From positions 1,426,001-1,490,000 of the forward strand of contig NZ_CP121197.1 of assembly GCF_029625215.1 (NCBI RefSeq): 64,000 nucleotides of DNA, written 5' to 3'. The translations under genes were made by a program, and so were the position numbers. The notes under the pieces are model-generated. The model did not search any database. It was not told the origin of the DNA and was given only the letters and a program-made list of their open reading frames with translations. Shown here one piece after another: positions 16,153-18,373 of this stretch (position 1 is its first letter; the number at the start of each line of letters is the position of its first letter). The stretch comes from Aurantibacillus circumpalustris (GTDB lineage Bacteria > Bacteroidota > Bacteroidia > B-17B0 > Aurantibacillaceae).

Positions 16153-16923
16153 ATGAAATTAGCCTTCCGCGAATTTGGTAATGGTCAACCTCTAATCATC
16201 TTGCACGGTTTATTCGGACAAAGCGATAACTGGAACACACACGCTAAAAGTTTTTCAGAAAAAGGATTTCATGTTTTTGCAATCGATCAACGTAACCATG
16301 GCTTATCGCCGCACAGCGATGTGTGGAATTACGAGGCAATGGCAGATGATTTGAAAGAGTTTATTGATGAGCACCAATTAAAAAACCCGATTCTTCTTGG
16401 TCATAGTATGGGTGGTAAAACGGTGATGTACTTTGAACGAAAATATAAAGGCATTGCATCAAAAATAATTATCGCAGATATTTCTGCAAGAGCTTACCCG
16501 CCTCACCATCAGGAAGTTTTAGCAGCTTTAAAAGCTGTAGACTTCACTAAAATATCAACGCGTAAGGAAGCCGAAGAGCTTATGAATAAATACATAAAGG
16601 ATTTTGGCACAAAACAATTTCTTTTAAAAAATATTTATTGGAAGGATAATTCAAATAACGTAATGGACTGGCGATTCAATTTAAAAGTGATTGATGCCAA
16701 TTATGAGAACGTATGTATGGGTGTTCCTGAATTTTCGAGCGAAGTAAAAACGCTCATTATAAAAGGCGAAAAGTCACATTATATAAGCGATTCAGATAAG
16801 GAAGATTTGAAAAAACGTTTTCCGAACTCCACATTTGTTGTTTTAAATGGTGCAGGTCATTGGGTGCACGCAGAAAAACCGAAAGAGTTTTTTGAGACGA
16901 CTTTGTGGTTTATAACAAATTAA
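16153..16923 (+). CDS. Alpha/beta hydrolase (YbfF-like esterase)
   Basis: This 256-residue hydrolase resembles the YbfF/abhydrolase-11 esterase group. It has HGLFGQSDNW (residues 18-27), DQRNHGLS, the nucleophile elbow GHSMGGK with Ser85, and the terminal catalytic His in GAGHWVHAEKP. The natural substrate is unknown; family members cleave short acyl esters. No signal peptide is present. It follows pdxJ by 20 bases and overlaps the convergent HAD gene by 14 bases at the 3' end. Confidence 0.9.
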   Translation: MKLAFREFGNGQPLIILHGLFGQSDNWNTHAKSFSEKGFHVFAIDQRNHGLSPHSDVWNYEAMADDLKEFIDEHQLKNPILLGHSMGGKTVMYFERKYKGIASKIIIADISARAYPPHHQEVLAALKAVDFTKISTRKEAEELMNKYIKDFGTKQFLLKNIYWKDNSNNVMDWRFNLKVIDANYENVCMGVPEFSSEVKTLIIKGEKSHYISDSDKEDLKKRFPNSTFVVLNGAGHWVHAEKPKEFFETTLWFITN

Positions 16924-17539
16924 GCTCTTTGAGTAAATCTCCAACCTCCATGTCTTTTGGAAGTAAATAGGCTTTGATGCCGCATTCACCAGCACCTTTC
17001 ACATGCTGAATGGAATCGTCAATAAACACCGTTTCCTCCGGAACTAATTCATTTTCTTTTAAAACTAATTCAAAAATTTCGCGATGAGGTTTGCGCATTC
17101 CCATTCTGCATGAATAGTAAACCCTATCAAAATAATCATTAAAGTTTTTTACACCGTGGTGAATGTAAAGTTCTTTCTCAAAACAAGCTATATGTGGTTC
17201 GCAGGTGTTGCTTAGTAAAAAGGTGTTGTAATTCTGTTTCATGTTTACAAGAAGATCTAACCTCTTTTCGGGAACATCCAATAACATCGCATTCCAAGCA
17301 TAGAGCAAATCAACTTCAGGACCTTCGTAACGAATCTGTTTTCTTAGTTCAGAAAAGAATTCAAAATCGCTGATTTTTCCTTTATCGAAGTCATTAAATA
17401 ATTCCGTTTGCGCAGTTTGTGTGTAAACTTCTTCAAAAGGAATGGCACTGATCTTGTTAAACTCATGAATAGTAAGGCTTTGGTCGAGGTTGATGATCAC
17501 GCCACCCAAATCAAAAATGATATTTTTTATTTCACTCAT
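16910..17539 (-). CDS. HAD-superfamily (subfamily IA) phosphatase
   Basis: This 209-residue HAD hydrolase has motif I IIFDLGGVIINLD with nucleophile Asp10, motif II in LLSNTCEPH, the motif III Lys in RKPHREIFE, and motif IV as VFIDDSIQHVKGA. The DLGGV form, with glycine where many HADs have a second Asp, occurs in YihX-like sugar-phosphate phosphatases, so this may be a hexose-phosphate phosphatase; the substrate is inferred. It is divergent from the tRNA with only 60 bases between them. Confidence 0.88.
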   Translation of the reverse strand: MSEIKNIIFDLGGVIINLDQSLTIHEFNKISAIPFEEVYTQTAQTELFNDFDKGKISDFEFFSELRKQIRYEGPEVDLLYAWNAMLLDVPEKRLDLLVNMKQNYNTFLLSNTCEPHIACFEKELYIHHGVKNFNDYFDRVYYSCRMGMRKPHREIFELVLKENELVPEETVFIDDSIQHVKGAGECGIKAYLLPKDMEVGDLLKELNLL

Positions 17540-17599: not shown

Positions 17600-17673
17600 G
17601 GTCCTATAGCTCAGCTGGTTAGAGCATCAGACTCATAATCTGAGGGTCCTTGGTTCGAGCCCAAGTGGGACCA
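17600..17673 (+). tRNA. tRNA with CAT anticodon (elongator tRNA-Met, or tRNA-Ile2)
   Basis: The cloverleaf folds completely. The acceptor stem is GGTCCTA/TGGGACC (one G-U pair), the D arm GCTC/GAGC, the anticodon stem TCAGA/TCTGA with loop CTCATAA (anticodon CAT at 17634-17636), and the T arm CTTGG/CCAAG with loop TTCGAGC. The discriminator is A at 17673 and CCA is not encoded. The 5' end is not the initiator type. CAT is read either as elongator Met or, after lysidine modification, as Ile2; I cannot decide by eye, though Met seems likelier. Confidence 0.93.
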
Positions 17674-17680
17674 CTTTTAC

Positions 17681-17705
17681 AGGAAAGCTTTGCTTTCCTT
17701 TTTTT
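17681..17705 (+). terminator. Rho-independent terminator of the tRNA
   Basis: Perfect eight-base arms AGGAAAGC/GCTTTCCT with a TTT loop are followed by seven T residues, just eight bases after the tRNA. An identical copy occurs 100 bases downstream. Confidence 0.9.
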
Positions 17706-17734
17706 ATTCTGGCTTGGGCGAGAAGTTTATCCCG

Positions 17735-17747
17735 CCGCAGCGAAGCG
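17735..17747. repeat. GC-rich dispersed element CCGCAGCGAAGCG (copy 1)
   Basis: This 13-base block sits inside the imperfect palindrome CCCGCC...GGCGGG (about 17731-17756). It recurs exactly at 19754-19766. In this AT-rich genome such GC-rich palindromic islands look like REP-type intergenic repeats. Confidence 0.6.
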
Positions 17748-17780
17748 GATGGCGGGGAGCCCAAGTGGGAACACTTTTAC

Positions 17781-17805
17781 AGGAAAGCTTTGCTTTCCTT
17801 TTTTT
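17781..17805 (+). terminator. Second copy of the tRNA terminator
   Basis: This is identical in stem, loop and T-tract to the terminator at 17681-17705. It lies in the second copy of the duplicated tail and has no gene of its own, so it can act only as a back-up terminator. Confidence 0.8.
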
Positions 17806-17860
17806 ATTTTAACTTTGGTTCCGAGCGAACGAGAGTGAGACTCGGGGAGCCCATTGGGAC

Positions 17861-18373
17861 TTTAAGACCCCGATTTTTTCGAGATTTTCTTTTGCCTATA
17901 ATTTTGCTCTTACTGAACGTCATTAGGTCAAGTTTTTGACTCCTTTCAAAAAACGATATTGAAAGTTCTGGGATTTTTCGTCTCGATACGACCACCGCAA
18001 ACTATTGCTATGCTAACACGAGGGGAATTCTCACTAGGACACATACACAGTCACTTCGAATAGATTTTTTCTGTCTCTTTGAAAAAATTGTATCGAGAAG
18101 AAATAGAAAACGAGTCTCGATTAGGCCAGGTAAACTATTGCCATGCCTAACGCCGGGACAAGGCATAGTTATTCTACAAAGTTTTTTGCATAAACATTAC
18201 AAATCGTTTCACTAAGACAATTACTATGTATTCAACCAAAACAAACTTTTGAAACTGAAACAACCGGTAAATTGTTTGAAACTCCTTGTTTTTTTGAATA
18301 AGTACTTTTGCATAACAATGGCTTAAACAAAGCCTTTTTAGTAGATTTACCCTCTTAAAATATAAGCTTCCGA
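17861..18373. other. Non-coding region with a degenerate direct repeat
   Basis: No gene is visible between the tRNA-tail modules and the transketolase gene. A third terminator-like hairpin (CGGGG...CCCCG followed by TTTTTT) lies at about 17843-17879. A degenerate direct repeat with core AAACTATTGCyATGC occurs at 17999-18014 and 18132-18146, and the second copy can fold with AAGGCATAG just downstream. No N-terminal transketolase fragment is recognisable. Confidence 0.5.
18303..18310 (+). promoter_or_regulatory. -7 promoter element (TACTTTTG) for the transketolase gene
   Basis: TACTTTTG matches TAnnTTTG and lies 64 bases before the ATG. A TTTG at 18275-18278 sits 24 bases upstream, slightly longer than the ideal spacing. 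Confidence 0.5.

Follow-up and report, generated by a model that had tools for sequence, protein, structure and literature searches.

The array that follows the CAT tRNA gene at positions 17657-17860 is probably a nuclease-free member of a family of homing-like elements that reside at tRNA genes of Bacteroidota. Here, the window is the whole stretch of DNA analyzed, 64,000 nt that correspond to positions 1426001-1490000 of a 4.6-Mb genome in one contig (G000). Elsewhere in this genome and in its relatives, partial tRNA copies of this kind accompany a gene for a small GIY-YIG nuclease. These genes are associated with tRNA genes, keep to the strand and, for most subfamilies, to the isoacceptor of their tRNA, form tandem arrays, and have left a deletion derivative of the element. 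We infer that the elements spread in a homing-like manner, and the architecture of the window array suggests that it descended from such a GIY-YIG unit.

A tandem array of tRNA tails and terminators in the window

The intact tRNA gene of the array (17600-17674, + strand, as for all array features below) carries the anticodon CAT and was called tRNA-Met by ARAGORN, with tRNA-Ile2 also possible. Its original 3' tail (17657-17674), composed of the 3' strands of the T-arm and acceptor, served as the reference copy of the repeat, and its intrinsic terminator, with the stem AGGAAAGC/GCTTTCCT and a T run, lies at 17681-17706. Both were found again downstream. Tail copy 2 (17757-17774) has a single mismatch to the tRNA, and terminator copy 2 (17781-17806) has the same stem and loop as copy 1. 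Overall, 17657-17718 and 17757-17818 form a direct repeat with a spacing of exactly 100 and 92% identity over 62 nt, and a comparison of 17657-17708 with 17757-17808 shows a single mismatch in 52 nt (C at 17671, A at 17771). A sequence-only reading of this DNA had described the duplication with the same spacing and the same single mismatch; only its tail length of 17 nt needs correction, to 18 nt. Its degraded third tail is present at 17847-17860 (GAGCCCATTGGGAC), and the two different palindromes that it placed before the extra tails are both real, hairpin 1 (TCCCGCC...GGCGGG) at 17730-17756 and hairpin 2 (TCCGAG...CTCGGG) at 17820-17846. The third terminator-like hairpin that it proposed has weak support: in the minimum-energy fold, TCGGGG is paired with CCCCGA ahead of six T's, but the z-score is -1.51, the centroid retains four of these pairs, and the terminator scan did not report the candidate. 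That scan returned exactly two terminators, with stems at 17681-17699 and 17781-17799 and T's after each, where shuffled sequences lead one to expect 0.6.

The hairpins of the window occupy the T-loop and not the anticodon arm. Hairpin 1 stands in the place of the T-loop, the T-loop hairpin of the array being GGGCGAGAAGTTTATCCCG, and is preceded by CTTGGGC (17713-17719), the equivalent of the T-arm 5' strand. CTTGGGC can form pairs with the GCCCAAG in tail copy 2, and this copy can therefore be read as a T-arm with a hairpin in place of its loop, followed by the tail and the terminator. The same CTTGGGC layout is repeated in L033 and L032. Hairpin 2 resembles TCCCGAG..CTCGGGA of L033, and this hairpin and those of L033 have the common form TCCGAG..CTCGG. 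We found no GIY-YIG remnant in the window array, and at no locus seen did the 100-bp unit of the window occur together with a nuclease gene. The statement that no integrase lies nearby was borne out, as none of the genome's nine integrase, two Y1-transposase, and seven GIY-YIG matches falls within the window.

Two observations concern the flanks. Just past the array, the stretch 17976-18146 contains two 15-nt direct repeats (17999, 18132) and 14-nt inverted arms (17976-17989 and 18090-18103). Upstream of the tRNA lies a gene on the - strand (16910-17539) whose product starts with MSEIKNIIFDLGGVIINLDQ and is presumably HAD-like; a similar gene start occurs downstream of the tRNA in L042.

Partial self-copies at other tRNA genes of the genome

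Copies of the respective 18-nt tail with no more than one mismatch were also found behind tRNA-Arg(tct) (+433), tRNA-Val(tac) (+338 and +710), tRNA-Ala(ggc) (+315), and tRNA-Ser(tga) (+161), and tRNA-Arg(cct) has a 97-nt unit in three near-identical copies that match its tail at 15 of 18 positions. A blastn survey of G000 detected self-copies at 13 of 35 tRNA genes versus 10 of 105 mismatched pairs, a control that is not low because tRNAs resemble one another. From the 13 hits, we picked eight loci by eye and dropped three rows explained by a neighbouring tRNA and two by a pseudo-tRNA. Besides the Met locus of the window, these comprise Ala-tgc, Arg-tct, Val, Arg-cct, Cys-gca (weak), Ala-ggc, and Ser-tga, that is, seven further loci with partial self-copies, one of them weak. 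Tail copies lie beside tRNAs in relatives as well. Because copies adjoin other tRNAs here and also occur in relatives, strain-specific slippage alone, the outcome against which the sequence-only reading had set its proposal, does not account for them. In a second genome (G001), the same survey covered 30 of 47 tRNA loci and gave no clear excess (7/33 vs 11/99 mismatched).

At Val, Ala-ggc, and Arg-tct, the intact tRNA is separated from a palindrome-interrupted copy by a small GIY-YIG gene, with two such genes in tandem at Val. The seven PF01541 matches in the genome consist of two in large frames and five small frames, four of which are the genes at these three loci. The fifth small gene (L064, G000 C1:1142959-1143177) lies without a tRNA in a dense CTTCGGGTTTGTTCTTTACACGCGG-type repeat. 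Upstream of the real tRNA-Val are ten similar tandem 89-bp units (L011, G000 C1:2150527-2151345), each composed of the promoter region, the first 28 bases of tRNA-Val, and the hairpin TCCCGACTAACGTCGGGA.

Copies of this kind can pass for genes. Behind tRNA-Ala(tgc) in rRNA operons, ARAGORN called a 'tRNA-Glu(ttc)' that is a copy of tRNA-Ala with the anticodon arm TCCCGAGTTTCACTCGGGA; one instance is L180:1446-1522 (G000 C1:2011487-2011560), and a similar match lies at 2898304-2898377. The pattern TCCCGAN{2,12}TCGGGA has 32 sites in G000 and none in a reversed control. Fifteen are within tRNA copies; those outside are scattered, many have the form TCCCGATAGCTATCGGGA, and these palindromes are possibly mobile by themselves.

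A small GIY-YIG nuclease gene at tRNA genes

The nuclease of the full element is a stand-alone GIY-YIG protein of roughly 80-110 codons, and its gene occurs in two layouts. In layout A, the intact tRNA and its terminator are followed by the GIY gene, which usually starts about 35-50 nt past the tRNA, and then by a partial copy of the same tRNA with a palindrome, a tail, and a terminator; the palindrome replaces or sits in the anticodon arm, D-loop, or T-loop. In layout B, the promoter region, tRNA 5' half, and palindrome come before the GIY gene, and the intact tRNA comes after it. The copy at L165 (Leu-taa) bears hairpins at three places. Among 84 distal-copy rows, in which at least six loci were entered twice under two numbers, the 9-mer of the anticodon loop was lost in 80 and kept in 4, while the intact tRNA remains alongside. 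An inverted repeat with a stem of at least six was present in 82 of these rows, with a mean longest stem of 7.45 compared to 5.11 for shuffled sequences and 5.23 for the intact tRNAs, where in some rows the longest repeat is A/T-rich and outside the tRNA part.

We searched 40 genomes of the genus with PF01541 and obtained matches in 39, large UvrC-type proteins included. A profile built from seven tRNA-side proteins separated a high-scoring clade from other small GIY proteins, a split that is not blind since the profile was made from tRNA-side proteins. Among the matches listed, a tRNA part adjoins 60 of 64 clade frames, namely an intact tRNA on the same strand for 44 and a partial copy for 16, some of the latter being weak tRNA hits; the four frames with no recognizable tRNA part are at L103 (twice), L133, and L145. 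For the lower-scoring small GIY frames, the corresponding count is 4 of 52 (low-scoring tRNA-side frames), with 48 away from tRNAs. None of the 116 small frames among the matches listed has a tRNA on the opposite strand in range.

Eighteen anticodons are involved. On a tree of 69 GIY proteins (86 columns, nine loci labelled by hand, 'Glu-ttc' hits counted as Val), the tRNA label changes 27 times, compared to a mean of 52.9 for shuffled labels, none of 200 shuffles being as low. This clustering may in part reflect descent in place. The Arg-cct, Arg-ccg, and Arg-tct subfamilies each occur in both layouts, which favours repeated insertion at one tRNA over descent in place alone. Fidelity has exceptions. 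One promiscuous subfamily is found at Phe (L119), Ala (L135), Met (L124), and Arg-acg (L125), and another moves among Ser tRNAs (L139, L162, and L171).

Conservation of the enzyme and of its hairpin

In 85 Val-type sequences, some of whose loci were counted twice, the residues Y, Y, R, and E, which we take to be catalytic, are invariant, and an H is present in 99%. Across 86 Val-type pairs of 70-97% identity, the median dN/dS is 0.11 and all values are below 0.5; the Val-type nuclease is under purifying selection. PF01541 scored above its cut-off in all five proteins scanned. The best profile matches among solved structures were UPF0213 proteins EF2693 (1ywl, E 1.1e-13) and BH0048 (1zg2, E 1.7e-12), and SLX1 (7cq2) was also matched (E 4.9e-9).

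The hairpin is conserved as a structure. We aligned 35 of 42 Val distal copies, leaving out seven with a T-loop insert or with no anticodon-arm hairpin in the stretch, and found pairing in 99.6% of 242 cells, with far lower values in slid controls. Three pairs (CCG/CGG) are invariant. In the other four of the seven pairs, both sides changed (28 cells; shuffled mean 6.9, 0 of 500 shuffles as high), and covariation was 0.294 versus 0.124 for shuffled alignments. Thus, the hairpin has undergone compensatory changes.

Distribution in the phylum Bacteroidota

With a profile of 20 proteins, relatives were detected in 64 of 87 genomes of the family, including 33 of 40 of the genus (E<=1e-12), and in 179 of 395 Bacteroidota genomes and 94 of 171 genera (E<=1e-15). 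In the phylum survey, at most 13 candidates were scored per genome and the link to a tRNA was checked at fetched loci only. The best 59 phylum loci contain 79 frames, of which 50 have layout A, 10 have layout B, and 19 have no tRNA in range, and none of the 79 has a tRNA on the opposite strand.

Using the Val protein as a query against 84,980 species genomes, we obtained 160 stretches with a relative and kept the best 80 loci. These hold 100 GIY frames, 81 in layout A, 3 in layout B, and 16 with no tRNA in range, again with no opposite-strand tRNA at any frame of these 80 loci. Among the 84 labelled frames of this set, 73 are at tRNA-Val(TAC), 3 are at Arg-tct, and 8 have odd calls, some of which are probably hairpin copies misread as tRNAs; frames that share an array do not count as independent. 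A far tail with at most two mismatches in 16 was present for 52 of the 81 layout-A frames. Judging from record titles, Pedobacter, Polaribacter, Algoriphagus, Marivirga, Mucilaginibacter, and Cytophaga are among the hosts of Val-type elements. Four loci carry the titles Kuenenia, Actinomyces, Limnohabitans, and Bifidobacterium (L269, L285, L298, and L307); they are on bin contigs of 3-11 kb and are probably misassigned Bacteroidota. In Pedobacter cryophilus (L261:1700-3300), three tandem GIY units follow the 3' part of tRNA-Val alone, and no intact tRNA was called at that locus.

We found no relative of the Val enzyme in 50,697 phage or 72,556 plasmid records (E<=1e-5). The enzyme of the promiscuous subfamily gave six weak phage matches with 36.8-40.3% identity. 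In an order-level tree of Val enzymes, 4 of 76 inner branches are starred and the order label changes 20 times, compared to 31.4 for shuffled labels; with so few columns and some clustering by order, the tree shows neither transfer nor descent for these enzymes.

Occupied sites, empty sites, and units that lack the nuclease

The nuclease gene occupies a specific site, as isoacceptor fidelity indicates, and orthologous loci are filled in some genomes and empty in others. The window locus has an upstream region conserved with 65-74% DNA identity in 13 relatives, and the locus is therefore orthologous in them. Judged by eye over up to 420 nt downstream, eight of these orthologues are empty (L034, L036, L047, L048, L052, L054, L058, and L059) and two have a GIY gene behind the CAT tRNA (L041 and L051). 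In L040, two GIY genes lie behind a tRNA-Leu that follows the CAT tRNA, and L049 has partial copies on both sides with no GIY gene seen. Nuclease-free units occupy this locus in the window and in L032.

A filled and an empty site could be compared directly for an array in G256 in which tRNA-Met is followed by five tandem units of about 366 bp. We sought the right-hand gene of this array in 121 congeners (G256 included), of which 41 matched and 30 loci were read. GIY frames on that strand were present in G256 only; 16 of the other 29 loci show tRNA-Met 112-556 bp before the gene. Relative to G559, which is empty and the next best match, G256 differs by the insert together with a duplication of ~100 bp that runs from tRNA base 27 through the terminator, as both of its tRNA-half and terminator copies resemble the single local one of G559. 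The far copy differs chiefly by TCCGCCACGGCGGA, which replaces ACCCTGAGGT. The likeness of the G256 repeats, whose terminators are identical, could also stem from gene conversion.

One element was found at two sites. In G001, a 555-bp stretch lies behind both tRNA-Met and tRNA-Arg(acg), with 547 of 555 positions identical (8 differences). At its far end is TGGGACCAC at Met and TGGTACCAC at Arg(acg), in each case the nine bases with which the tRNA at that site ends, and at Met the far copy extends into the terminator region. This is the only such pair, and both of its targets are tRNAs.

Units with and without the nuclease gene also occur side by side. At L149 (Leu-caa, G001), the second of two units is intact, and the first has lost 191 bp of its GIY gene, from about the start codon to the last 20-odd codons, with retention of the hairpin, tail, and terminator. 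The deleted unit therefore shows how nuclease-free repeats like those of the window can arise. L139 has two nuclease-free units between the tRNA and the GIY gene, and in L151 a nuclease-free tail follows two GIY units. Behind the CAT tRNA, nuclease-free units with GGGCGAGAAGTTTATCC or a near form were found in L033 (three units), L032, and L042. The window units may have come from deletion of the GIY gene or through a nuclease acting in trans.

Discussion

Several other explanations for the window array deserve consideration. It is unlikely, although less so than the alternatives that follow, that the tail and terminator were duplicated locally by slippage or unequal recombination, that the palindromes came later, and that the nuclease elements are unrelated. 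The alike terminator copies and the spacing of exactly 100 fit such a history, and the three near-identical 97-nt units at Arg-cct are what recent slippage would be expected to leave. Against it, the same kind of hairpins, T-arm pairing, and unit layout is seen elsewhere, both at further tRNAs and in further species; nuclease and nuclease-free units share arrays (L139, L149, and L151); and the near-identity of tails 1 and 2 is not matched by hairpins 1 and 2, which differ. Purifying selection on the enzyme, a maintained hairpin, and wide occurrence in the phylum would also be expected of a system domesticated by the host, in which the nuclease and a hairpin-bearing tRNA mimic serve tRNA dosage, repair, or defence and are not selfish. 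We regard domestication as improbable given the marks of an element: orthologous loci are occupied in some genomes and not in others, units are amplified in tandem, one unit is a deletion derivative, and a single element occupies two tRNA genes.

Duplication of the tail at a tRNA 3' end is a classic sign of integration at a tRNA site, and the genome has nine integrase matches. The sequence-only reading had offered scars of integration and excision as one source of the array. Mobile-element activity at tRNA genes is indeed what the loci suggest. The tyrosine integrase, however, is missing from them: all nine matches lie outside the window and more than 15 kb away from each of the eight tRNA loci with copies, the nearest being ~16 kb from Ser-tga. 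Moreover, terminators and hairpins are part of the copies, and in layout B it is the 5' half of the tRNA that is duplicated. Island scars made by a tyrosine recombinase with the tRNA 3' end as attachment site are hence scarcely credible, and we rejected them for want of an integrase near the tRNA loci with copies. The other source offered was a landing site for REP-like elements, here palindromes mobilized by a Y1 (RAYT-like) transposase that would carry the tails along. Two Y1_Tnp genes are present in the genome and palindromes of the TCCCGATAGCTATCGGGA kind occur away from tRNAs too, but both Y1 genes are >100 kb from the tRNA loci with copies and the gene that adjoins tRNA copies is GIY-YIG, in 60 of 64 clade cases. 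The REP proposal is unsupported, and we consider it very improbable.

If the array does belong to the family of tRNA-gene elements, which we take to be homing-like and selfish, its history might be pictured as follows. The Slx1-like nuclease would putatively nick or cut cognate tRNA genes that lack the element, and repair of the break would then insert the element and duplicate part of the tRNA and its terminator; the host would therefore keep a working tRNA. Recombination between repeats could later expand, contract, or remove the array, and loss of the nuclease gene would leave solo tail repeats such as those at 17657-17860. The putative roles of the hairpin include protection of the target, recognition by the enzyme, and hindrance to precise loss by recombination. 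A difficulty for this scheme is the presence of an intact tRNA beside the nuclease gene: were the tRNA itself the target, this copy should be cut.

More tentatively, and with a little less than even confidence, we propose a new class of selfish element in which stand-alone Slx1-like GIY-YIG nucleases, most subfamilies of which are committed to one isoacceptor throughout the phylum, parasitize the tRNA gene itself. Insertion would duplicate half of that gene, and a co-varying hairpin that substitutes for the anticodon arm would label the duplicate; solo arrays of tails and of heads, like that of the window, would be the non-autonomous descendants of this class. Full-text searches of an open library, which covers neither subscription papers nor preprints, gave no description of such elements among the papers listed. 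With relatives in 179 of 395 Bacteroidota genomes, an element family that is as yet undescribed may reside at the tRNA genes of this major phylum. The elements provide a natural test of how a nuclease of 90 residues with no extra DNA-binding domain stays loyal to one tRNA gene, whether by structure or by sequence, and of why a hairpin has taken the place of the anticodon arm. They also call for caution in annotation, since some partial copies are annotated as tRNAs and given a false anticodon, as with the 'tRNA-Glu(ttc)' behind tRNA-Ala.

Comparison with known systems

Genomic islands that integrate at tRNA genes rebuild the tRNA and displace a copy of its tail. The present loci differ in having no nearby integrase, in duplicating 5' halves as well, in their internal hairpins, and in units of about 90-450 bp. 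REP/RAYT elements are short palindromes in intergenic arrays and can include non-autonomous units; here a different enzyme is linked, and the units are fragments of, and specific to, their own tRNA. The enzyme itself is a minimal GIY-YIG domain related by sequence to UPF0213/Slx1-like proteins. Unlike the tRNA-side clade, the lower-scoring small GIY proteins of the genus are mostly away from tRNAs. The available part of a survey of the GIY-YIG superfamily describes the prokaryotic members of the Slx1 family as this minimal form, and in that part tRNA occurs three times, never in connection with loci of the present kind (PMC1564403).

The best analogue of the element is SegB, a free-standing GIY-YIG homing endonuclease of T-even phages. 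For SegB, the unit of tRNA and nuclease is reported to be amplified in tandem, by a proposed route in which the nuclease gene's 3' end and the tRNA's 5' end share a short stretch of homology (PMC13096335). The two systems are alike in the presence of a GIY-YIG enzyme at tRNA genes and in their tandem units of tRNA and nuclease. SegB is carried by phages, whereas the present elements are chromosomal and encode the minimal domain only. Unlike SegB as described in that report, most present subfamilies are loyal to one isoacceptor, and a hairpin substitutes for the anticodon arm.
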